A stretch of DNA of 64,000 bases from Chitinophaga sp. E66 (lineage in GTDB: Bacteria > Bacteroidota > Bacteroidia > Chitinophagales > Chitinophagaceae): positions 3,038,001 to 3,102,000 of the forward strand of contig CP079103.1 of the NCBI GenBank assembly GCA_019285755.1. The letters run 5' to 3'. Position numbers and translations under genes: made by a program. The notes under the pieces were generated by a model, which did no database searches, had not been told where the DNA came from, and was given only the letters and a program-made list of their open reading frames with translations. This document shows positions 11,836-24,004 of the stretch, piece after piece. Every line of letters starts with the position of its first letter. Positions within the stretch are counted from its first letter, which is position 1.

Positions 11836-13825
11836 TCAAGACGTGGCGAACCTGGTCGGAAATTCCAGCGTTATGAATGTACCCTTTATGGAAGACTGCA
11901 CGTCCATGGCACCCCAAACGCCGCTACGCGGGCCTTCAGGCTGAATATCCCGATACCCGTTCCTTCTTTGGAGCCATCGATCCCCTTGCCATCGTCTTCA
12001 ACGGTAAGCGCAAAGCTTTCTTCGCCGAAGTTCAGCTGTACCAGCACATGAGCAGCCTCCGCATGTTTGATCACGTTGCCCAGCAGCTCCTGCAACATCC
12101 GGTATACCATCAGTTCGAACTGGGGTGAAAGCGCCGGGGAATGCCGTAGGACTGGTATTCCACTTCGAGCGAGTTGTTCCGCCCGAGCTTTTCGCAGTAA
12201 GCGCCGGCCGCGGGCTCAATCCCCTCCTCAAACAAAAGCCTTGGCATCAGGTTATGTGACGTATCGCGTATTTCCGTCACCGCATCACCTAGTAGTGCAA
12301 GGCTATTATGGTAAGAAGATGAGTTGGCCAGTTCAATATGCTGGTTGCCAAGTGAGGAGAGGTACAGTTTCACCCCTGACAAAATCGATCCGGCGCCGTC
12401 GTGCAGATTACGGGCGATGCGGGCGCGTTCCTTCTCCTCTCCTTCCATGGCTGCCTGCGCCATTGCCAGTTCTGACTCCTTTTGCATCAGCTGCATCTGT
12501 TGCGCCTGGAGCTGTTGCTTCTGCCGGAAATGCACGAACAGCCCGGCAGCTATCGCTACCACGAGCAATAGCCCGCCGCCCAGGAGGATCAGCTGCTGGC
12601 TTTTCTTCCGCAGTTCCAGGTCTTTAGTGGTGATAGCCAGCTGCTGATCGGCGAGCGATTTGTCTTTCTCCAGCGATTTATACTTCAGTTCCAGTTCGGT
12701 CACCTTATCCGCCACGTCTTTGCGCTGGAGGCTGTCGCGGTACAGGATGTATTGGTTCAATGATGCCAGTGAGGCAGCCTTGTCGCCCAGTTGCAGCTGG
12801 ATGCGGGTCATCAGCAGATGCGCGTCCATGATGGCGCTTACCTGACCGGATTGCGAGACATATTGCAATGCTTCCCTCATGTACCTTTTTGCCTGGAGGT
12901 AGTTATGCTCCGAGTAATAGACTTTTGCCAGCCCGGTATACAGTGTGGCCCGGTGAAGGGGAACCACCGTAATACCATCTTTCAGCATGATTGCTTCCGC
13001 TTCCTGCAGGGACATCCTGGCAGAATCGGCTTTGCCCGGAATGCCGGAAAGCAGGTCTCCGAGGCTGGTGCGCCCAATGAACCTTCCTATATCGTATCCG
13101 GACAAATCACTGAGCCGGATCACTTCCCGGCATGCGCCGGCCGCATCCACCAGTTGCCCGCTTTCTTCCATCAACCCGGCACGGTTGATGAGTGATTTAA
13201 CGAGATTATCCGTGTCTTTCCGCAAGGCATACAATCGCCCGCATTCCAGGTTATAATAAAGCGCCTTTTCCGGTTGTCCCATATGCGAGAATGCCAGTGA
13301 AAGGCCGTTGTAGGGATGCGCCTTTACCAGCGAGTCCGCCACCGATATGGTTTCTATCGACGAAAGAAAATACCCGACGGCGGAGTCCAGCTTACCGGAT
13401 TCGAGGCAGGCATATCCCATGCCTGTCAGTACCCGCGCCATATTCTCGCTGTCGCTGATCCGCCGGTATGCGTCCAGCGCCCGCAGGCTTGCGCGCTGAC
13501 TGGAATCAAAAAGACCGCTGAACAGCGCCAGTTGCGATATCATCTGGTTAGACCGGCCAATCCCGTAAGTGAAGTTTTTACGTTGACTGAGCGCCAGGGC
13601 TTCATGCGCAACGGCATAAGCCGAATCGGTATTCACTTCAAACAGCGCGATGGCATATTTGACCAACCTATTGGCACGGGCAGTATCGCTGGTAGCTTCG
13701 TTTATATATCGGCGGTGGCCGGCAGACAATTCATTCACCGATTGGGATCGCGCTTTCAAAGCTGGCAAAAGCAGCATCGCCGGCAACCAACGAAGAATAA
13801 AAACAAAACACCTGGTATAATGCAT
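11836..13825 (-). CDS. TPR sensor histidine kinase, NarX/LytS-like (frame broken)
   Basis: A two-component sensor of about 663 residues. After a signal peptide (MHYTRCFVFILRWLPAMLLL) comes a long helical-repeat sensor region (TPR-type, about residues 35-370), one transmembrane helix (LILLGGGLLLVVAIAAGLFV), a coiled coil and a HisKA_3 domain with the phospho-acceptor histidine in IARNLHDGAGS. The HATPase part follows (MLQELLGNVIKHAEA, VEDDGKG). The ORF stops falsely at FHPSSN; one more C near 12118 gives HPQFELMVYRML, and another base near 11910 gives the natural C-terminus and stop at 11836-11838. It closely resembles the kinase encoded just upstream. No response regulator gene lies in the window. 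Confidence 0.9.
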
Positions 13826-13876
13826 GTTCGGAAAGGTTATGACACTTTTAGAGATTTTGTTACTGCCGGGTAACTG

Positions 13877-15847
13877 CTATACCTGGCCAACCGTATGCTC
13901 CAGCGGCACAGGGAACTCCAGTGTAATGGAGGTACCTTGTGGAGAGGATTGTACGTCCATCGTACCACGGAATGCTTCCACCCGGGAATTGACGGCGAAC
14001 ATGCCGATACCCTTACCGGCGCCCTGATCACTCATCCCCTGCCATCGTCTTCCACCGTCATGGTGAAAGTATCCGGGCTGAACGCCAATTGCACCAGGAC
14101 ATGCTTCGCTCCGGCATGCTTCATTACATTTCCCAGCAACTCCTGCAATGTGCGGAACACCATCAGTTCGAAATCGATATCAAAACGCGCAGGCTCTCCA
14201 TAAGACTGAAATTCGACCTCCAGGTTACCGCTCCGGCCGATCTTGTCGCAATAATCATGAATGGCGGTATGGATACCTTCGAGATGGAGCGTTTTGGGCA
14301 TGAGATTGTGGGAAGTTTCACGGATTTCTGTAACGGCTTCATTGAGGAGGCCGATCGTATCGCGGTAGGCGGATGATCCGGCCAGGTCCTGGTATTGGTT
14401 TTCGAGAGAGGAAAGATATAGCTTCACACCTGATAAAATGGAACCGGCCCCGTCGTGAAGGTTCCGGGCGATGCGGGCCCGTTCTTTCTCTTCAGCTTCC
14501 ATTGCGGCCTGCACTTTCGTCAGTTCCGCTTCCCGTTCCAGGGTGATGACTTTCTGGGCAGATAACATCTGTTTCTGCCGTATGTGCAACATATAGGCCC
14601 CGCCGCCTAACAGCAGCAGTAAAATAGCGCCAGACAATGTCAACAGCCCGATATTCCGGGTGCGGATATCCAGCTGCCTGTGCGCAAGATCCAGTTCTTT
14701 GCGGGCCAGTTCGGCGTCTTTCTCCGCCGTACGGTATTTCGTTTCCAGCTCGCTGGCCGTTTTCGCCATCTGGATATCGTTCGCGCTGTCGCGATAATCA
14801 TTGTATAAATTGTAAGTCCGCAGGCTTTCGTCCTTCAACCCTAACAATATATTCACTTTCGTAGCCACGCGGTATTCCTTAACGAGCATGGCGAGGTTCC
14901 TAGTTCTTCGGCCATCTGTGTGGATTTCAGGTGATACTGCCTTGAAAGTTCATATTGCTCTTCCATATAGTAAAGCCGTGCGAATATGGAATACAACGTG
15001 TGGAGATAGGGTTTCTGGATGGTAACTTTCTTTGAGATATCTTCCGCCTGTTTCAGCCATATGAGCGCTGAATCATTTTTCATCACTGACAAATATCGGT
15101 CGGCCATCGCCAATCTTCCGTAAAATCTCCCAACCGTAAAACCCGATTGCTCGCTTAACGCGATCGCCTCCTGGTATATCGGGGTAGATTCAGGATAATA
15201 TACATAGCTGCCGTGGTTGATAATTGCGCGTACGAGGTTGCCGGTGTCCTTATTGATCCGGTATTGCTCCTGTGCCTTCAGGCAATACTCGATCGCCTTA
15301 TCCCTGGGACATCCGGTTGAAAGCGATGCCGATATTATTGTAAGCTACGGCCCTGCCGCTAAGGTCGCCCGACTTCGTGAAAAGTTCTATGGCATACAGG
15401 CAGGCATCCACCGCTGAATCCGAATCACCCGTTTGCAGGAAGCTGCCACCGATGCCGGAAGCCGCCCTGCCCGCGAGATAAAAGCTGTCCATCGACAAAA
15501 ATATTGCAGCGCCTGCCGGTAGAACTCTCTCCCCAGTAAATAGTTCCCGGTATCGATCACCCCATGCCTCTTCCCCAAAGGCTTACCGCAATGCTCGGTA
15601 TCTTTTGCAGCCAGGCCAACCTTATACGTTGAATCGAATATGAACAGAGAGGAATCCGGGTACTTGTCGGCTATGCTTCTTGCCGAGCGGATGAGATTCC
15701 GGAGGAAGCCGTGTCTGCAAGACCGGCTTTAGCGCTGTTCTCTACTTGCGTGGAACCATGTTGCCGGCATGAGCCAGCCAACAAAATAGTGACAGCCGCG
15801 AAGGCCGCTAAGAATACATTGAGAAATGTCAGGCGTTTGCGGAGCAT
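13877..15847 (-). CDS. TPR sensor histidine kinase, paralogue of the next gene (frame broken)
   Basis: Same architecture as the kinase encoded downstream, 51 bp away: an N-terminal signal with a lipobox-like LLAGSC, a TPR-type sensor region, a transmembrane helix (LLTLSGAILLLLLGGGAYML), HisKA_3 with IARNLHDGAGS, and HATPase motifs (LQELLGNVMKHAG, VEDDGRG). Near-identical stretches such as ILSGVKLYLSSL in both kinases show a tandem duplication. At least four breaks are present. The first, near 15700, hides the N-terminus starting at 15847. The last, near 14040, hides the C-terminal KGIGMFAVNSRVEAF and the stop at 13877-13879. Confidence 0.87.
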
Positions 15848-16354: not shown

Positions 16355-17118
16355 TCAGGAAGCGAGGATAACTTTCACGCCCCGATCCTGCAGCATTTGT
16401 ACCGTTCCCGCATCAACCTGGTTGTCGGTCACGATATAATCCACCTGTTCCAGGCTACAGATGCGGCCAATACCGCGACGGTCGAACTTGGAGCTGTCGG
16501 CCATCACGACTACCGTTTGCGCCAGTCCGATCATCTTCATGTTGAGGCTGGCTTCGGCCAGGTTGGTAATGGAAAGGCCGAATTCAGGATCGATGCCGTC
16601 AACACCGACGAAAAGGACCCCGCACGAGATATCGTCCAGCAGCCGTTCGGCAAACGAACCCGCGGCGGCGGAAGAGCTTTGATGGATGAGCCCGCCGATC
16701 TGCAGCACATCTACATTCGGGCGGTTGCATAGCTCCAGCGCTACTTTGAGCGCAGGGGTTATGACGGTAATATGTTTGGAGGGATGCAGGACACGGGCCA
16801 GTTCAAATACGGTGGTACCTGACCCGATGATAATGGAGTCGTTATGCCCGATCAGTTCCATGGCCGTGCGCGCGATCTTCTTTTTCTCCTCCATGCGGAT
16901 GAATTCCTTTTCGTTGATCGGGCGCTCGATGGCATAGGGGTTTTGCGTGGAGCCGCCGCCCTTGGTACGGAAAAGGAGCTTCTTTTCCTCCAGCAGTTTG
17001 AGGTCTTTCGAATGGTAACACCCGAAACCTGGAGCATATCGCTCAGTTCCTGGATATCTACTTTTCCCTTTTCCTGTAATTCCTGGAGTATCAACTGATG
17101 CCTTTCCGTGATGTTCAT
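16355..17118 (-). CDS. DeoR-family transcriptional repressor (one frame break)
   Basis: About 254 residues: an N-terminal DeoR helix-turn-helix (residues 5-57, RHQLILQELQEKGKVDIQEL and VSGVTIRKDL after repair) and a C-terminal sugar-phosphate-sensing domain (GSGTTVFELA, ADSSKFDRRGIG). The break is a lost A near 17013; repaired, the junction reads TIRKDLKLLEEKKLLFRTKG. Members of this family usually repress a neighbouring sugar or polyol operon and are released by a phosphorylated intermediate. Here the target is most likely the divergent six-gene operon starting at 17353, across a 234-bp gap. Confidence 0.9.
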
Positions 17119-17246: not shown

Positions 17247-17283
17247 AAACTTAACTTTATTTTAATTTTGTTTAATTAAGTTT
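17247..17283. promoter_or_regulatory. Inverted repeat around the operon promoter, candidate DeoR operator
   Basis: Perfect 8-bp arms AAACTTAA (17247-17254) and TTAAGTTT (17276-17283) flank a TAATTTTG box. The repeat is centred almost on that box, so a bound repressor would block RNA polymerase. The DNA is AT-rich, so chance occurrence is possible. Confidence 0.45.
17263..17270 (+). promoter_or_regulatory. TAATTTTG -7 box for the six-gene operon
   Basis: Perfect TAnnTTTG match, 82 bp before the transporter ATG, inside the inverted repeat at 17247-17283. No good -33 TTTG is visible at the usual spacing. Confidence 0.5.
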
Positions 17284-17352
17284 ACTTTCTACTTTTAGGA
17301 AGTTTCAAATCAATTCCGATCCCATTTCATTCCACGAAACACTGATACTACC

Positions 17353-18608
17353 ATGAACACTTTAGAAAAAGCAGGCATCCCGCGCCAACTCGTCTGGGGC
17401 TACCTCGGCGTTATGATCTTCATGATGGGCGACGGCATCGAACAGGGATGGCTAAGCCCTTATCTTGTCGATCACGGCATGTCCGTTCAGCAATCCGCAA
17501 CCCTCTTCACGGTATATGGCATCACCATTGCCATTTCCGCCTGGTTCTCCGGCGTACTCGCGGAAGGCTACGGCGTCCGCCGCACCATGGCCCTCGGCTT
17601 ATTATTGTATTGCCTGGGTACGGTCGGCTTCGTCGGCTTCGGCATGCCGCAGCTCAATGTCCCGGTAATGCTCCTCACCTATGCGCTCCGCGGATTCGGA
17701 TATCCCCTGTTCGCCTATTCCTTCCTCGTCTGGATCGCGTACAGTAGTCCGCAGCAGCAGCTCGGCCGCGCCGTGGGCTGGTTCTGGTTCGTGTTTACCG
17801 GAGGCCTCAATGTTCTCGGCGCTTACTATTCCAGCTGGGCCATCACTAAATTCGGGCACCTGAATACGCTATGGACCTCCCTCTTCTGGGCGCTCCTCGG
17901 CGCCGTGTTCGCCCTGCTGCTTAACCGCAGCAAGCCCTCCCGTCAGTCTGCCGGCGGTTCCAGGATGGAAGAGCTGATTAAAGGCCTCACGATCGTCCGG
18001 GAAGAGCCGAAGGTTTTACTGGGAGGGATCGTTCGCATCATCAACACCACCGCGCAGTTCGCTTTTCCCGTTTTTCTCCCCATGTACATGGCGCGGCACG
18101 GATTCGATACCACGGAATGGCTCACCATCTGGGGCACCATCTTTACCTCCAACATCATCTTCAATCTCATTTTCGGCTTCGTGGGCGACCTCTTCGGCTG
18201 GCGCAACACGATCATGTGGTTCGGCGGGGTTGGTTGCGCGCTCAGCACCCTCCTGTTTTCTACGCACCGCAGATCTGGGAAGGCAGTTATTGGGCCGTGA
18301 TGACCGCCGGCGTGCTTTGGGGCGCCCTGCTGGCGGGATACGTTCCCCTCACGGCGCTCGTACCCTCCCTCGTTAAGAAAGATAAAGGCGCAGCCATGGC
18401 TATCCTTAACCTGGGCGCCGGGCTCCCCGTGTTCGTTGGTCCCGCCATCGTAGGGCTCTTCATCGGAATCGTAGGTGAAGAGGGCGTCATTTGGATACTG
18501 GCGGCCTTATATATCGTAAGCGCCGTCATCACCCGCTTCATCACCCTGCCCAACAACGCTAAAACCATTCACCACACGCAACCAACAGCAGCAACTCAAC
18601 CGATATAA
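17353..18608 (+). CDS. MFS transporter, polyol-permease type (one frame break)
   Basis: A 12-helix major-facilitator protein of about 418 residues. MGDGIEQGWLSPYLVDHG, GITIAISAWFSGVLAEGYG and RRTMALGLLL match the RbtT/DalT/CsbX branch, which carries polyols or organic acids; YoaB of Bacillus subtilis looks related. The break is one T lost near 18260; repaired, the junction reads TLLFFYAPQIWEGSYW. First gene of an operon whose next start is 2 bp after its stop. The true substrate is unknown. Confidence 0.88.
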
Positions 18609-18610
18609 AC

Positions 18611-19615
18611 ATGCGCATTTTAATTACAGCTCCTTACCATCAGCAAGGCATCCAGGAAATAGACCAGCTTTTCGGAGAATCGGTATACCGGCCGTGGAAG
18701 CCCAACGGCCGCGCCTGGAACGAAGCAGAACTGATACAACTGCTGACGGATTCCCGGGCAGACGCGCTCATCACCGAACATGACCATGTAACCGCCGATG
18801 TGATCAAAGCGTTCCCCAGCTGAAGTTCATCGGGGTGTGCCGAGGCACTCCCAGCAATGTGGCCGTTGCACAGGCCTCCGCACTCGGCATCCCGGTATTT
18901 TTCACGCCGGCCCGCAATGCGCAGGCCGTAGCGGAAATGTTCATCTCCAACGTCATCATGCTCCTGCGCAATACCATCCCGGGCATCGACTGGCTGAAAG
19001 GCCGCAACTGGCAGGCCGGGGCGCACGACTCCTACCTTCATTTCAAAGGCAACGAACTGGCCGGGAGAACCGTGGGCATGGTGGGGTTCGGCGCTATCGG
19101 GCAACTGATCGCCGGCATGATCCGCAATTATCCCTGTGATATCCGGTTCTTCGATCCATACGTAACGGAATATGATCCGGTATACACGAAATGTTCGCTG
19201 GAAGAGCTTTTCTCCACATCCGACGTAGTATCCGTTCACCTGCCCGTAACGGAAGAAACGAAAGACATGATCGATGCCCGCGTATTGACATTGATGAAAA
19301 AGACGCCATTTTTGTGAATACGGCCCGTGCCGCCGTGGTAAAACGCGAAGACCTGCTTGCCGCCCTGGAATCAACGCTATCCGTGGAGCGGTATTAGACG
19401 TGTTCGACAACGAGCCGCCCGACGAAACAGATTACCGCATCATCGACCATCCGAACGTAATCGCCACGCCGCATATCGCCGGCGCTACGTTCGAAGTGGA
19501 AGACCACCACGTCGCCATCATGAATAAAGCCCTTATACAATGGTTCGCCAACGGCAGCCGGAACATCCGGGAGCTGGCCAATCGTCAAATACTTCCAACT
19601 CCCGTCAATGGATAA
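18611..19615 (+). CDS. D-2-hydroxyacid dehydrogenase, PGDH-like (frame broken)
   Basis: An NAD-dependent dehydrogenase of about 335 residues. The NAD-binding loop is GMVGFGAIGQ. The catalytic set is Arg in VNTARAAVV, Glu in DVFDNEPPD and His in TPHIAGAT. The substrate-loop region GVCRGTPSNVAVAQA resembles 3-phosphoglycerate dehydrogenases and the uncharacterised YoaD. Three breaks occur (near 18823, 19310, 19375), each restored by one base. It overlaps the next gene by 8 bp (19608-19615), which implies translational coupling. The substrate is probably a product of the kinases encoded next to it; it is not likely to be the biosynthetic SerA, given the context. Confidence 0.87.
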
Positions 19616-21051
19616 ACAACCCGCATACATCATTGCAGACATCGGCACAGGCAACGTTCGCGTAGCCGTTGCCACGCCCGGCGGACAGGTGCTCGGCGTG
19701 TCCCGCGAAGACATCCGTTATGAAAAGGACCCGCTATACCCGGACGCGCTCCACTTCGACCCGGAAGCGCTCTGGCAACAGATCCTGCGGCTGGCCCGCC
19801 TGTCTCTTGCATCGGCGCCTGGTGCAGACATCCGCGCCATAACGGCTACCAGCCAGCGCGAAGGCATCGTGCTACTGGGAGACGACGGCACATCACTCAC
19901 CGGGCTACCCAACATCGACCACCGCGGTCGTGAATGGGAAAGCACGCTTAACGACAAAAGCCGCGTCTATCAACTCACCGGCCGCTATCCGACCTCGCTG
20001 TTCTCCGCGTTTAAGCTGGTAGGCATCCGAGAGCGCAAGCCTGAGATATGGTCTAAAACCAGGTCATTCCTCAGCATTTCCGACTGGGTGGAATACAAAT
20101 TTTCCGGCGTCGCGAAATACGAGCACTCCAGGCATCGGAGACCCTGCTCTTCGATGTAAAACAAATGCAATGGAGCGATGCGCTTTGCTCGGCATTCGAT
20201 TTGCAGCCTTCTCTCCTGCCGCCGCTTCGCCGGTCCTCGTCTGTATTAGGGCCCGTGCTGCAGGAAGTAGCGAATACATTGAATATTCCCTCATCCGCGC
20301 TCGTCATCGCAGGCGGTGGCGACACGCAGCTTGCCATCAAGAGCACCCGTCCCGCCGTAGACGATATGGTCATCGTTTCCGGCACTACCACTCCCATCGT
20401 AAAGCTCACAGGCGATTATACCCTCGATGCCGGTGAACGCACTGGACCAGCCGCGACATCGTTGCCGGCCGCTTTGTCTTCGAAGCCAACGCCGGCGTCA
20501 CCGGTCTCAACTACCAGCGCCTGAAAGAAATCTTCTATCCCAACGAAGGCTATGATGTCATCGAAAAGGAACTAGCCGAAAACCGCCACACCTTCTGCAT
20601 GGCGAGCCTCGGCTCGTTGCTGGCAGACGAAGAAGTATCTCTCACCCGGGGCGGCTTCATCTTCCCAGCGCCGGTCTCTCACCTCCTCACCCGTGGCAGT
20701 TTCGTATGGGCCACGATGGTCGACATCGCATGCTCCATCGTTAAGAACTATAAAATTCTTGCCGAAGTAGCCGGCCACCAGCCCGATTACATCTGGGGAT
20801 GCGGCGGCGGACTGCAAAGCCTGACGCTGCGCCAGCTCATCGCCAACCTCACCGGCAAGAAAGTGCAGATGCGCGCCGGATTCCAGCAGTCGTCCGCCGT
20901 TGGCGGAGCGCTTATCTGTAACGAAGCATTGGGGATCGACGGGCAAATGGACGGCTCCGTTGAAACGGTGCACCCGCAGGAAGAGGCGCATTACGCCGCC
21001 ATCTATGCGGAATGGGAAAAAACACGGGATTATTTCAGGAATATGAACTGA
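19608..21051 (+). CDS. FGGY-family carbohydrate kinase, LsrK/YgcE-like (frame broken)
   Basis: A sugar or polyol kinase of about 480 residues with the hexokinase-like fold. ADIGTGNVRVAVATPGG is the phosphate-1 loop, ATSQREGIVLL and NIDHRGREWE lie in the substrate domain, ISDWVEYKFSG and IAGGGDTQLAI follow, and GCGGGLQSLTLRQLI is the adenosine-site glycine loop. The SQREGIVL stretch is shared with autoinducer-2 kinase LsrK and E. coli YgcE, so a linear C5/C6 substrate is conceivable. Two breaks (near 20125 and 20440). Distinct from the second FGGY kinase that follows; the pair may act on two intermediates. Confidence 0.87.
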
Positions 21052-21077
21052 TCCCGCCCTTTAACAGTAAAACACTC

Positions 21078-22491
21078 ATGGAACATACTTTTATCGGGCT
21101 AGACATTGGCACACAGGGCGTCAGGGCCATTCTCACCGATGCGGATGGCGGGGTACTGGCTTCACACAGCGAAACCTTCCCTTTAAGCGCCGCATCACGG
21201 GAAGAACAGCAACCGCAAGCCTGGTGGACCGCCTGCGAACGCCTGCTGGCACAACTGGCATTGCATCCGGCCGCAGCAAACCTCCGCGCCATCGGGGTTA
21301 CCAGCACCTCCGGCACCGTGATCCCTATCGATGCAAACGGCTCTCCCCTGCATGCTGCCATCATGTACAGCGACGCCCGCCAGTCGGCCGAAGGCCTGCG
21401 CTGCAAGACGCTGGCGGAACAATACCACCCGGAAGGCTACACGGCGTTCAACACCACCAGCGGTTTGCCTAAAATGGTCTGGTTCGCGGAACAATTTCCG
21501 GAAAAGGCCCGCCAGATCTACAAATTCATTCACGCCGCCGACTTCATCACCGGTAAACTCACCGGAAATTTCGGCGTCACTGATTTTACCAATGTGTTAA
21601 AATCGGGGTACGACGTAGCAAACGAACGCTGGCCGGAATATATTTGGAACCAGTTGCCGGTACGCAGGGATTGGCTCCAGGATGTAGTGCCCTCCGGCGC
21701 GCCGGTCGGTGAGTTATCTGTCCGCATTCCGGGCTTACCTGCAAATGTATTGGTGACGGCCGGCATGACAGACGGATGCGCATCTCAGATCGCTTCCGGA
21801 GCGGTAACGCCCGGCGCCTGGAATACCACCATCGGCACCACGCTTGTGATAAAGGTGTAACCGAAAACCGGTCCATGACCCACTGGGCAGATTATATAAC
21901 CACCGCCATCCGCAAGGTTTATGGATGCCGGGAGGCGCCAGCAATACCGGGGCCGACTGGATATCGAAGCATTTCTCCGGCAACCTTGACGCCCTCAATG
22001 AAGCCGCCGCCGGGTTTATCCCTACCGGCAAGCTCTATTGGCCACTGGAACAGCAGGGCGAGCGCTTTCCCTTCGTAGCGCCTCAGGCGCGGGCTTTTCT
22101 GTCCACCGGACTGGAAGGCGCGGAAAAATTTGCGGCGGGCATGGAAGGCGTGGCCTATATCGAAAAGATGGCTTATGAAATGATAGGATCGCTTTCAGGT
22201 GAATCGGTAAAAGCCGTTTACACCGCCGGCGGCGCCAGTAACAGCACGTTATGGCTGCGCATCAGGGCGTCCGTACTGGGCGTTCCGGTCCATAAGATGC
22301 AGGAAGTGAGCGGCGCGGCGGGCGCGGCCATGCTATCCGCGTCACAGACGTATTATGGTAGTATCGCGGAAGCCGCGGCAGCCATGGCACACATCGAAAA
22401 GACCCTGTTACCCGAACCGGAATTGGCGGAAGCGTACGGAGAGGGATACCAGGCATTCAGGGAAAAATTGAAAGAAAAAGGATATGCTTAA
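21078..22491 (+). CDS. FGGY-family carbohydrate kinase, YoaC/xylulokinase-like (frame broken)
   Basis: A second FGGY kinase of about 471 residues, 26 bp after the first. GLDIGTQGVRAILTDADG is the phosphate-1 loop, TSTSGTVIPID and ADFITGKLTG follow, and YTAGGASNSTLWLRI is the C-terminal adenosine motif. GGASNTGADWI after the break near 21930 recalls YoaC of B. subtilis. I chose the ATG at 21078 over the upstream in-frame start at 21012 because MEHTFIGLDIG starts the domain and the extra part overlaps the previous gene. Two breaks (near 21860 and 21925). Confidence 0.87.
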
Positions 22492-23081
22492 AGTTTACCT
22501 GCTCCGGCATGGCCAGACCGCCTGGAACGCTGATAACAACCGGTATTGCGGCCGGACCGACATTCCGTTGACCGCCAAAGGCATCGCGCAGGCCGAAGCT
22601 GTGCGCGAACAGTTGCAGGGCATCGCATTCGACGGCGTGTACTCTTCACCCTGGAACGCGCCTTCATGACAGCCAACATTGCCACCGGCGCCTATGTAAA
22701 GAAAGATGACAGGTTGATAGAAGCAGATTTCGGGGATGGGAACGCAAAACAAAGGAAGAATTCATCGCGGAAGCGCCGGAGCACTGGCAGCGCTGGATGG
22801 AAGACCCCTACCTCCACCGGGCCGGCGGCACCGGCGAAAGCGGCCGCGAGATCGTGGAACGCGTGGATGCCTTCTTCACGGACATTCACCGCAAACATCC
22901 TTCCGGCAATATCCTGGTAGCCGCGCACAATGGCGTGAACCGCCTGTTCCTTGCCTACAAGCTCGGCATGCCATTGCGCAATTACCGCATGCTTGTCCAG
23001 GAAAACGCATCCATCACCATGTTTACACTAGACGCCAGCGGCGCATTCACCTTAGAACATCTAAATGCCAAATTCAGATAA
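22484..23081 (+). CDS. Histidine phosphatase, phosphoglycerate-mutase-like (frame broken)
   Basis: About 198 residues. YLLRHGQTAWN carries the phospho-accepting histidine (RHG); GVYSSPLERAFMTA, seen after repair near 22655, and LVAAHNGVNR hold the other catalytic residues. Small enzymes of this branch are mostly phosphatases acting on small phosphate esters, not mutases. The start overlaps the preceding kinase stop by 8 bp (22484-22491), so translation is coupled. In an operon with two kinases it could remove phosphate from a product or limit sugar-phosphate stress; this is inference. Confidence 0.88.
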
Positions 23082-23082
23082 C

Positions 23083-24004
23083 ATGAAAAGAATCCTCCTC
23101 AGCAGCGCACTGCTTTGCGGCGCCATCGGAAGCTTCGCGCAGTCGGGCCTGCATGTGCTGAAAATAAAGAACGCCAAGGAGCTACGCTCCTTCTTTCATT
23201 ATACCGGGAACGATATCCCCTTCGTCAGCGGCCACCGCGGAGGCGTCAATAAAGGCTTCCTGAAAACAGCATCGAAGCCTTTGAAAATACCCTCCGCCAC
23301 ACTCCCGCCACCTTCGAGATCGATCCCCGCCTCACCAAAGACAGCGTGATCGTGCTCATGCACGACGCCACGCTGAACCGGACCACCACCGGCACCGGTA
23401 AAGTAGGCGACTATACCCTGGCAGAACTGAAGCAGCTGCGCCTCAAAGATGTGGAAGGCAACGTCACCGATTTTCGCATCCCCACGCTCGAAGAAGCCAT
23501 CAAATGGGCAAAAGGCAAAACCGTCCTCATCCTCGATAAGAAAGACGTGCCCTTTGAAATGACGGCCGCAATCATCAAAAAGAACAAAGCGGAAGGCCAT
23601 GTGATGGTGACCGTTCATACCGCCAAAGAAGCCAAATGGTACCACGAACGCAATCCCGAGATCGTGTTCGAGGCATTCGTGAAAACGCAAAAGGCGCTGG
23701 AAGAATATGAAAAGGAAAGCATTCCCTGGACGCACATCATGGCATATGTTGGCCCAGACAACAAGCCAGAGCTCAAGCCGCTGTACGACAACCTGAATAA
23801 ACGGGGGTGATGTGCATGATTTCCACGGCGCCCACGTACGACAAGCTTCCTGATGCAGGAGAGCGCAGCAAAGCTTACCAGGCCATTATTAAAGACGGCG
23901 CCAGCCTCATCGAGGCAGACCGTTCACTGGAAGCAGGCGAAGCCATCCTGCCGCTGATTCCCGCCAGGAGCCCGAAAAAGAAATTCTTCTCCATTACGAA
24001 ATAA
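23083..24004 (+). CDS. Secreted glycerophosphodiester phosphodiesterase (frame broken)
   Basis: About 306 residues with a signal peptide (MKRILLSSALLCGAIGSFAQ), so it acts in the periplasm or outside. GDPD signatures: SGHRGGVNKG (first catalytic His), ATFEIDPRLTKD (metal Glu/Asp) and LMHDATLNRTTTGTG (second catalytic His). Two breaks: near 23272, where repair gives PENSIEAFENT, and near 23805. The enzyme would cut glycerophosphodiesters to glycerol 3-phosphate and an alcohol. As last gene of the transporter-kinase operon, 1 bp after the phosphatase stop, it suggests the imported compound is released from a phosphodiester. Confidence 0.88.

Follow-up and report, generated by a model that had tools for sequence, protein, structure and literature searches.

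Catabolic loci for short sugar alcohols are the described systems closest to an operon that we studied in Chitinophaga sp. E66. By "the window" we mean the whole stretch of DNA that was analysed, 64,000 nucleotides of contig CP079103.1, and positions are counted from its first letter. The Sinorhizobium meliloti locus for erythritol, adonitol and L-arabitol has been studied genetically; according to the accessible part of PMC3599248, it comprises mptABCDE, eryABCD, rbtABC, lalA and eryR-tpiB-rpiB. Known tetritol routes pass via erythrulose and its phosphates (accessible part of PMC12780249). In Bacillus subtilis, yoaD and yoaB are S-box genes (accessible part of PMC517825), and cysteine degradation has been guessed as the function of YoaDC and YoaE (accessible part of PMC2885750).

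The Chitinophaga operon encodes a carrier of the major facilitator superfamily (MFS), a 2-hydroxyacid-dehydrogenase-family enzyme (DH), two FGGY kinases (K1 and K2), a histidine phosphatase (HP) and a glycerophosphodiester phosphodiesterase (GDPD). Our leading explanation is that the operon is inducible and serves the catabolism of a short sugar alcohol, likeliest a pentitol (ribitol/adonitol or an arabitol) and in the second place a tetritol, with two enzyme modules relocating a phosphate. We hold this explanation tentatively, at a little below an even chance.

Gene layout and co-inheritance

The genes form a plus-strand series, MFS-DH-K1-K2-HP-GDPD, at 17353-24004, as determined by calling open reading frames (ORFs) and by Pfam. 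Proteins of a close relative, Chitinophaga rhizosphaerae (L028), gave identical starts and ends as tblastn queries. The gaps of 2, -8, 26, -8 and 1 bp listed in the initial annotation fit both the sequence and these ends. The features are as follows.

17353..18608, plus strand: MFS transporter of the RbtT/DalT/CsbX polyol-permease family (TIGR00897); frame break near 18258
18611..19615, plus strand: 2-hydroxyacid-dehydrogenase-family enzyme DH (PF02826); three frame breaks
19608..21051, plus strand: FGGY kinase K1 (PF00370/PF02782), which groups with LsrK; two frame breaks
21078..22491, plus strand: FGGY kinase K2, SePSK/AtXK-1-like; one frame break near 21855
22484..23081, plus strand: histidine phosphatase of branch 1, HP (PF00300); two frame breaks
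23083..24004, plus strand: GDPD (PF03009), probably secreted; start at 23083 or 23065; two frame breaks
16361..17118, minus strand: gene of a DeoR-family regulator, divergent from the operon; one frame break near 17005
17266..17297, plus strand: weak candidate for a Bacteroidota-type promoter, TTTTG-N19-TACTTTTA, in the AT-rich block between regulator and operon

The tblastn pieces reveal 11 frame breaks over all six genes (MFS one, DH three, K1 two, K2 one, HP two, GDPD two), the third break in DH being known from the short piece 19296-19370 alone. The whole genome is a single 6.29-Mb contig with a completeness score of 65%, and relatives carry all six genes open, without frame breaks; for these reasons we take the breaks as assembly error. 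Other genes of the window (1-64000) are likewise broken up over different frames, the picture that an uncorrected long-read assembly gives.

Named genomes were scanned with an alignment of K1, which yielded 126 relatives. The best 80 of the 126 loci, all from Bacteroidota by title, were analysed with a greedy ORF caller. K2 and HP are present in all 80 loci, K1 in 79, DH in 78, the carrier in 75 and GDPD in 69. In these counts K1 of L033 and DH of L035 are masked by a longer ORF on the opposite strand, L030 is cut at a contig end, and HP of L052, found in two pieces, is taken as present. K2 and HP are adjacent in 79 loci, and MFS-DH-K1-K2-HP are contiguous in 69. Many soil bacteria keep the set together, the genera including Chitinophaga, Niastella, Pedobacter, Sphingobacterium, Dyadobacter, Larkinella, Spirosoma, Adhaeribacter, Rufibacter and others.

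Since the loci were selected by K1, its own count among them is not independent; the independent test is a set of 60 Chitinophaga genomes. With thresholds that we chose (E 1e-60, and 1e-80 for DH), K1, K2, HP and DH were each found in 17 genomes, the same 17 in every case, so that the four are concordant in 60/60. Nine of the 17 positive genomes had supplied rows of the alignments. GDPD occurs in 21 genomes, namely in all 17 with the operon and in four without it; in one of the 17 (G012) it is encoded only elsewhere in the genome. Thus the gene set, kept in many genera and concordant in the 60 Chitinophaga genomes at these thresholds, is conserved beyond chance, which bears out the initial view of the locus as a single operon. 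Because DH, K1, K2 and HP co-occur and GDPD is separable, the pathway proper consists of those four, and GDPD often accompanies them. Across the phylum the operon is uncommon and scattered: in a phylum-wide sample of 395 genomes, a strong match to K1 was found in three, one of them the source genome, and a weak match (E about 1e-26) in two.

Protein families, conserved residues and homologous loci

The carrier of an intact relative (L020) scores 566.1 bits against TIGR00897 (RbtT/DalT/CsbX), above the curated cut-off of 375, and the pieces of the window's carrier are 94% and 86% identical to the protein of C. rhizosphaerae. By this profile match the carrier is a member of the polyol-permease family. 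A search of plasmid records found 63 with a relative of the carrier, and the neighbours of four were read. Those from Pseudalkalibacillus and Klebsiella quasipneumoniae (68.7% and 55% identity to the carrier) adjoin genes for an alcohol dehydrogenase, DhaK/DhaL and an RpiB-type isomerase, neighbours that would fit tetritols as well as pentitols.

Catalytic residues of DH, K1, HP and GDPD are assigned here by family knowledge. In the alignment, the usual motifs are replaced in the DH subfamily by R-x-x-P-(x)-N and TP[AG]RNA. The triad R240/E269/H289 and the motif residues R78, R102 and N103 are invariant in 78/78 homologues; the extra arginines R78 and R102 could bind phosphate. The enzyme resembles phosphoglycerate dehydrogenase (PGDH) and glyoxylate reductase, and weakly PdxB (99 bits, cut-off 434). 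No listed NCBIfam model gives it a score above cut-off, the PGDH/SerA models included (185 against 454 and 170 against 404 bits). A fuller SerA match lies at C1:2527655-2528875, in four pieces of 86+354+57+61 bits, none of which alone exceeds the cut-off of 404. The initial annotation had allowed for DH being the only PGDH-type enzyme of the genome; given this match it is not, and a role in serine biosynthesis was rejected on the same ground.

A relative of DH occurs in 87 plasmid records, and neighbours were read in 10. An FGGY kinase and an aldolase-fold protein adjoin DH in six of the ten stretches, the others being from Niallia, Mesorhizobium, A. vitis and Halapricum. The DH motif is missing in the Niallia and A. 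vitis relatives and present in some form in those from Mesorhizobium and Halapricum. On a Klebsiella plasmid (L141:2854-5996), a ribose-type ABC carrier has as neighbours MtnB, an FGGY kinase and a 2-hydroxyacid dehydrogenase that bears the motif. The aldolase-fold neighbour there is a true match to MtnB, a dehydratase (333 against 226 bits). This triad had no match in the E. coli genomes searched.

The two FGGY kinases are distinct, as the initial annotation held. K1, with D11 and D239 invariant in 79/79, is on the side of LsrK in the tree (support 97/91), where an Enterococcus kinase joins it (100/100). The likeness to LsrK proposed at the outset stands as a grouping and falls well short by score, as K1 reaches 152.7 bits against a cut-off of 528 in the LsrK model NF008187. 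An autoinducer-2 (AI-2) operon was rejected on this score and on the neighbours. Judged by these comparisons, the operon belongs neither to the serine pathway nor to AI-2 processing. Kinases of Paracoccus and Streptomyces atratus were considered as relatives of K1 and rejected (14-51 bits, other clade in the tree). A second kinase tree omits four rows of the first (K2 of L077 and L079, K1 of L054 and one LsrK) and adds eight; both trees gave long-branch warnings, the Enterococcus kinase included, and their root serves for drawing only.

K2 is SePSK/AtXK-1-like and matches SePSK with E 2.4e-55 by profile, SePSK and AtXK-1 (PDB 5htn, 5htr) being its nearest solved structures. Its residues D9/T12/K175/D232, invariant in 80/80, correspond to D8/T11/K163/D221, the catalytic residues of SePSK in the accessible part of PMC4880283. 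Kinases of Streptomyces and of the Sinorhizobium polyol locus share a clade with K2 (100/100). The HP fragment in the window scores 21.5 bits against PF00300 (cut-off 21.7), and HP of an intact relative 193.6. This branch-1 histidine phosphatase is below the cut-offs of all NCBIfam models listed; R8/H9/R59/E80/H149 are invariant in 79/79. GDPD of an intact relative scores 81.8 bits against PF03009 (cut-off 23.6). GDPD matches PDB 3mz2 with E 1.2e-113, and its H57/E85/D87/H100 are invariant in 69/69. By a crude count, a hydrophobic N-terminal window is found in 60/69 GDPD, 2/78 DH and 1/79 HP sequences; GDPD is thus probably secreted, and HP shows no sign of a signal peptide.

A search with K2 found 176 plasmid records, and the best four of the 176, from Streptomyces BHT-5-2, KN37 and NBC_01727 and from Nonomuraea, were examined for the gene set. 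In each, HP and DH are accompanied by two FGGY kinases, one of them of K2 type; in the stretches read, a DeoR regulator is present in three and the carrier in two. K2 and HP are adjacent in three, and DeoR lies between them in NBC_01727. GDPD was found by tblastn in one of the four stretches, at a distance of some 6 kb from K2. The other FGGY kinase differs from K1 and falls into a clade (100/99) of kinases whose neighbour, in Klebsiella, Streptomyces, Paracoccus, Sagittula and Sinorhizobium, is a DH with the motif.

The Sinorhizobium locus, L155, is from the record CP090106.1 of S. meliloti Ak57. It encodes, in order, an FGGY kinase, DH, an L-fuculose-phosphate-aldolase-like protein, a glycerol-3-phosphate-dehydrogenase-like protein, a class II aldolase, a K2-clade kinase, a HAD phosphatase (broken), an epimerase, DeoR, triose-phosphate isomerase and D-erythrulose-4-phosphate isomerase (253 bits, cut-off 240). 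By content and order we matched these genes to eryA, rbtA, fucA, eryB, lalA, rbtB, rbtC, eryC, eryR, tpiB and rpiB as given in the accessible part of PMC3599248. The record is labelled plasmid pSymB; at 3.72 Mb it is far larger than pSymB and may be a mislabelled chromosome. The order of the first genes of the S. meliloti locus is presumed, and the equation of rbtA with DH was reached by elimination. Since homologues of DH and K2 thus lie in a locus matched to a genetically studied pentitol locus, the initial suggestion of a catabolic route not yet described is too wide. Open-access literature yielded no description of the operon itself, which does not prove that none exists, and no paper joining FGGY, a class II aldolase and a hydroxyacid dehydrogenase.

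Close relatives of the K2-type kinase of L155 occur in 44 plasmid records, of which three more were read, from Aminobacter, Phyllobacterium and Shinella. They repeat the pair of the kinase and a TIGR01459 HAD phosphatase, so that in all four alphaproteobacterial records the kinase adjoins a phosphatase of another fold than HP. One kinase-phosphatase pairing has thus been assembled with two unrelated phosphatases. In Aminobacter (L158:5926-11428), the pair is beside genes for rhamnose isomerase and mutarotase. The modules of kinase with DH and of phosphatase with K2-type kinase recur, and they are joined in Bacteroidota and in the four Actinobacteria; by the gene matching, both would serve pentitols in S. 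meliloti.

A strict choice between a class II aldolase and the pair of phosphatase and K2 was considered and rejected, a tendency being all that is seen: S. meliloti, Aminobacter and Shinella have both. Among the stretches read, the aldolase occurs without K2 in Enterococcus, two Streptomyces, Paracoccus and Sagittula. K2 with the phosphatase occurs without the aldolase in the four Actinobacteria, in Phyllobacterium and, by the queries used, in Bacteroidota. There, phmmer at 1e-5 found no class II aldolase in the 80 loci with the Enterococcus and Paracoccus aldolases and Klebsiella MtnB as queries, LalA not being a query.

The DeoR regulator is present in 61/80 Bacteroidota loci. In the window its C-terminal ORF matches DeoRC (PF00455, 151 bits), and its pieces are 95% and 97% identical to the protein of C. 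rhizosphaerae. The 10-mer ATTTTGTTTA occurs, on either strand, in 24/59 intergenic regions; in one mononucleotide-shuffled set any 10-mer occurs in at most 5. The candidate promoter follows the Bacteroidota-type promoter consensus. A riboswitch scan of the window gave no match at gathering score, and riboswitch control of the operon was rejected on this result. Beyond the regulator, at 12110-15704 on the minus strand, there are two paralogous genes, sensor-kinase-like with repeats (a family assigned by reading only), matched by two tandem proteins in the relative L020.

Surroundings of the 80 loci were studied in stretches of at most about 21 kb, with Pfam run on one member per main cluster and two small clusters assigned by reading. 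Exo_endo_phos clusters occur near 23 loci, Metallophos near 13, type I phosphodiesterase (Phosphodiest)-type near five, and GH106 rhamnosidase near 11. SusC/SusD are encoded at the start of some loci. Beside the operon in 23-24 of the 80 loci is a module of an MFS carrier, FAD_oxidored (PF12831) and Exo_endo_phos (for example L047:1033-6356), seen in Sphingobacterium, Pedobacter, Chitinophagaceae and others. The Pedobacter loci L054 and L065 have rhamnose-type genes, named by reading, just upstream of the operon.

Predicted pathway and rival explanations

The predicted substrate is probably a sugar alcohol of four or five carbons, for example ribitol. We infer a pathway in two modules. DeoR would repress the operon, and the RbtT/DalT-type carrier would import the polyol. 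In module 1, K1 would phosphorylate one end of the polyol and the NAD-dependent DH would oxidise the neighbouring carbon, or the two would act in reverse order; the product would be a ketose phosphate that carries its phosphate beside the keto group, in the simplest chemistry a ketose-1-phosphate. In module 2, HP would strip this phosphate and K2, D-ribulose-kinase-like, would re-phosphorylate the far end to give an intermediate of the pentose phosphate pathway. Outside the cell, the polyol may be released from a phosphodiester by the secreted GDPD or, in sister loci, by a different phosphoesterase; the surroundings are compatible with, and no proof of, a polyol freed outside the cell from phosphodiesters or glycosides. 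Such relocation of a phosphate would account for the presence of two unlike kinases and a phosphatase in one operon and for the likeness of the second kinase to D-ribulose kinases.

Several observations weigh against a polyol substrate. The operon has no classical polyol dehydrogenase. DH retains all three catalytic residues of the 2-hydroxyacid dehydrogenases, and the known enzymes of that family use hydroxy or keto acids. In the literature we found no proven case in which an enzyme of this fold uses a polyol or its phosphate. Such a role is suggested only by the genetic link of rbtA, and the Sinorhizobium gene names on L155 are our own assignment from content and order. K1 is outside the clade of the L155 kinase taken as EryA and sits on the LsrK side. 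The ligating Ser222 of SePSK is Gly in K2 (80/80). Carrier relatives from Peribacillus (59.7%) and Priestia (52.7%) have no adjoining DhaK/RpiB genes. In Aminobacter, Phyllobacterium and Shinella no 2-hydroxyacid dehydrogenase is annotated within 15 kb, and two of the three have a class II aldolase. The GH106 clusters near 11/80 loci point to deoxysugars, and rhamnose genes lie beside the Aminobacter pair of K2 and phosphatase. Finally, GDPD is separable from the operon, being absent from 11/80 loci and present alone in 4/60 Chitinophaga genomes.

The catalytic triad of DH (78/78) and its resemblance to PGDH, glyoxylate reductase and, weakly, PdxB are grounds for a sugar-acid route, in which the carrier would take up a C4-C5 aldonate (tetronate or pentonate) or its 2-keto form, DH would interconvert the two, K1 and K2 would phosphorylate and HP would adjust the phosphate. 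FGGY gluconokinases exist, and in Enterococcus an NhaC-like carrier (74 bits, cut-off 370) adjoins DH. However, the operon's own carrier is of the polyol-permease family, two of its four read relatives are in DhaK/RpiB loci, and the Sinorhizobium homologues are tied to polyols. Among the annotated recurring neighbour clusters there is no aldonate dehydratase, keto-acid aldolase or DUF1537 kinase, although no dedicated search was made. We consider the sugar-acid route unlikely. A salvage of deoxypentoses or S-adenosylmethionine by-products, with K1 and DH handling a 5-deoxypentose-type or AI-2-like compound, is decidedly unlikely in our view. It draws on the grouping of K1 and the Enterococcus kinase with LsrK (97/91), on the Enterococcus DH-K1 pair, which sits with MtnK (370 bits, cut-off 275), a class II aldolase and a protein of MtnA type that passes the cut-offs of two MtnA models but not that of TIGR00512, and on the Klebsiella DH relative that sits with MtnB. 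The S-box genes yoaD and yoaB would add to it if YoaC and YoaD are kin to the operon's proteins. Against this, in the 80 Bacteroidota loci phmmer at 1e-5 found no relative of MtnK, MtnA, MtnB or class II aldolase, no lsr-type neighbours were noticed, and the carrier is of a polyol family.

The remaining two alternatives concern parts of the operon and may hold alongside others. HP and K2 might be a clean-up pair that destroys a mis-phosphorylated ketose and recycles free D-ribulose, with catabolism left to K1 and DH; this explains module 2 only. K2 is nearest to SePSK/AtXK-1 among solved structures, and three alphaproteobacterial stretches have a K2-type kinase and phosphatase without DH, but the pair is present in 80/80 Bacteroidota loci and co-occurs with DH and K1 in the 60 Chitinophaga genomes. 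We regard such a clean-up role as very unlikely. The initial annotation had suggested that the substrate is freed from a phosphodiester; on this view GDPD would act first, cleaving glycerophospho-alcohols whose freed alcohol the other proteins use, and a phosphodiester would be the true substrate. This scavenging is compatible with a polyol operon, and as an explanation it seems to us rather improbable. GDPD directly follows HP in 69/80 loci; five of the 11 loci without GDPD have another phosphoesterase cluster (Exo_endo_phos, Metallophos or Phosphodiest-type). The claim of an obligatory first step is nevertheless weakened by the loci that lack GDPD, by the four Chitinophaga genomes with GDPD and no operon, by its occurrence in a single actinobacterial stretch at some distance from K2, and by six of the 80 loci that have none of these phosphoesterases, L078 among them ending just behind HP.

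The polyol operon may be one instance of a wider pathway with exchangeable modules, an idea that we regard as possible and doubtful. Dehydrogenases with RxxP(x)N/TP[AG]RNA would act on polyols or polyol phosphates together with a K1-type or EryA-side kinase, followed either by a phosphatase (histidine or HAD) and a D-ribulokinase-like kinase or, elsewhere, by a class II aldolase split. If this holds, several FGGY and dehydrogenase groups whose function is unknown would gain substrates, across at least four phyla (Bacteroidota, Actinomycetota, Pseudomonadota and Bacillota). For the operon itself, one testable pathway, found in many Bacteroidota genera and in Streptomyces, would tie together kinases annotated only as "FGGY", "xylulokinase" or "autoinducer-2 kinase", a PGDH-like dehydrogenase and a histidine phosphatase. 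The predicted substrates are D-ribulose or a similar ketose for K2, the other phosphate of that ketose for HP, and a polyol or polyol phosphate for DH.

Comparison with known systems

The Enterococcus raffinosus megaplasmid (L108:5655-14687) has an operon in which DH and a K1-type kinase are joined by a class II aldolase, an iron alcohol dehydrogenase, MtnK and MtnA. DH (40% identity) and the kinase (33.5%) are adjacent there and in the same order as in Chitinophaga, whereas the class II aldolase and MtnK/MtnA replace K2 and HP. This operon may be a deoxypentose route with an extra entry. LsrK groups with K1 in the tree, but K1 is far below its cut-off and has no noticed lsr neighbours. The D-ribulose kinases SePSK and AtXK-1 differ from K2 in Ser222, replaced by Gly, with D8, T11, K163 and D221 kept. 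According to the initial annotation, yoaDCB of B. subtilis would encode a carrier, a dehydrogenase and a kinase of the operon's families; its S-box regulation has no counterpart here, as the window holds no riboswitch at gathering score. The rbt and dal pentitol operons of Klebsiella share the transporter family TIGR00897 (RbtT, DalT). They have ordinary polyol dehydrogenases and one kinase per pentitol, unlike the operon.

The operon FGGYb-K2-HP-DH of Streptomyces and Nonomuraea has K2 (36-40% identity), HP (33-40%), DH (33-35%) and, where present, the MFS carrier (48-50%). It differs in its first kinase, which is in the clade of the L155 kinase, in gene order, and in having no GDPD within the operon. 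The S. meliloti locus shares a DH-type enzyme with the identical motif (33% identity), an FGGY kinase beside it, a DeoR regulator, and, at the RbtB position, a K2-clade kinase (37% identity, clade support 100/100) that adjoins a phosphatase. Its ABC transporter, glycerol-3-phosphate-dehydrogenase-like enzyme, class II aldolases, HAD phosphatase and three isomerases are absent from the Chitinophaga operon. The kinase beside its DH, taken as EryA, belongs to another FGGY clade than K1. The RbtC position is held by a TIGR01459 HAD protein in S. meliloti and by a histidine phosphatase in 80/80 Bacteroidota loci, where TIGR01459 itself was not searched. Compared with these systems, the Chitinophaga locus is best read as a polyol operon in which the first kinase and the phosphatase have been replaced.

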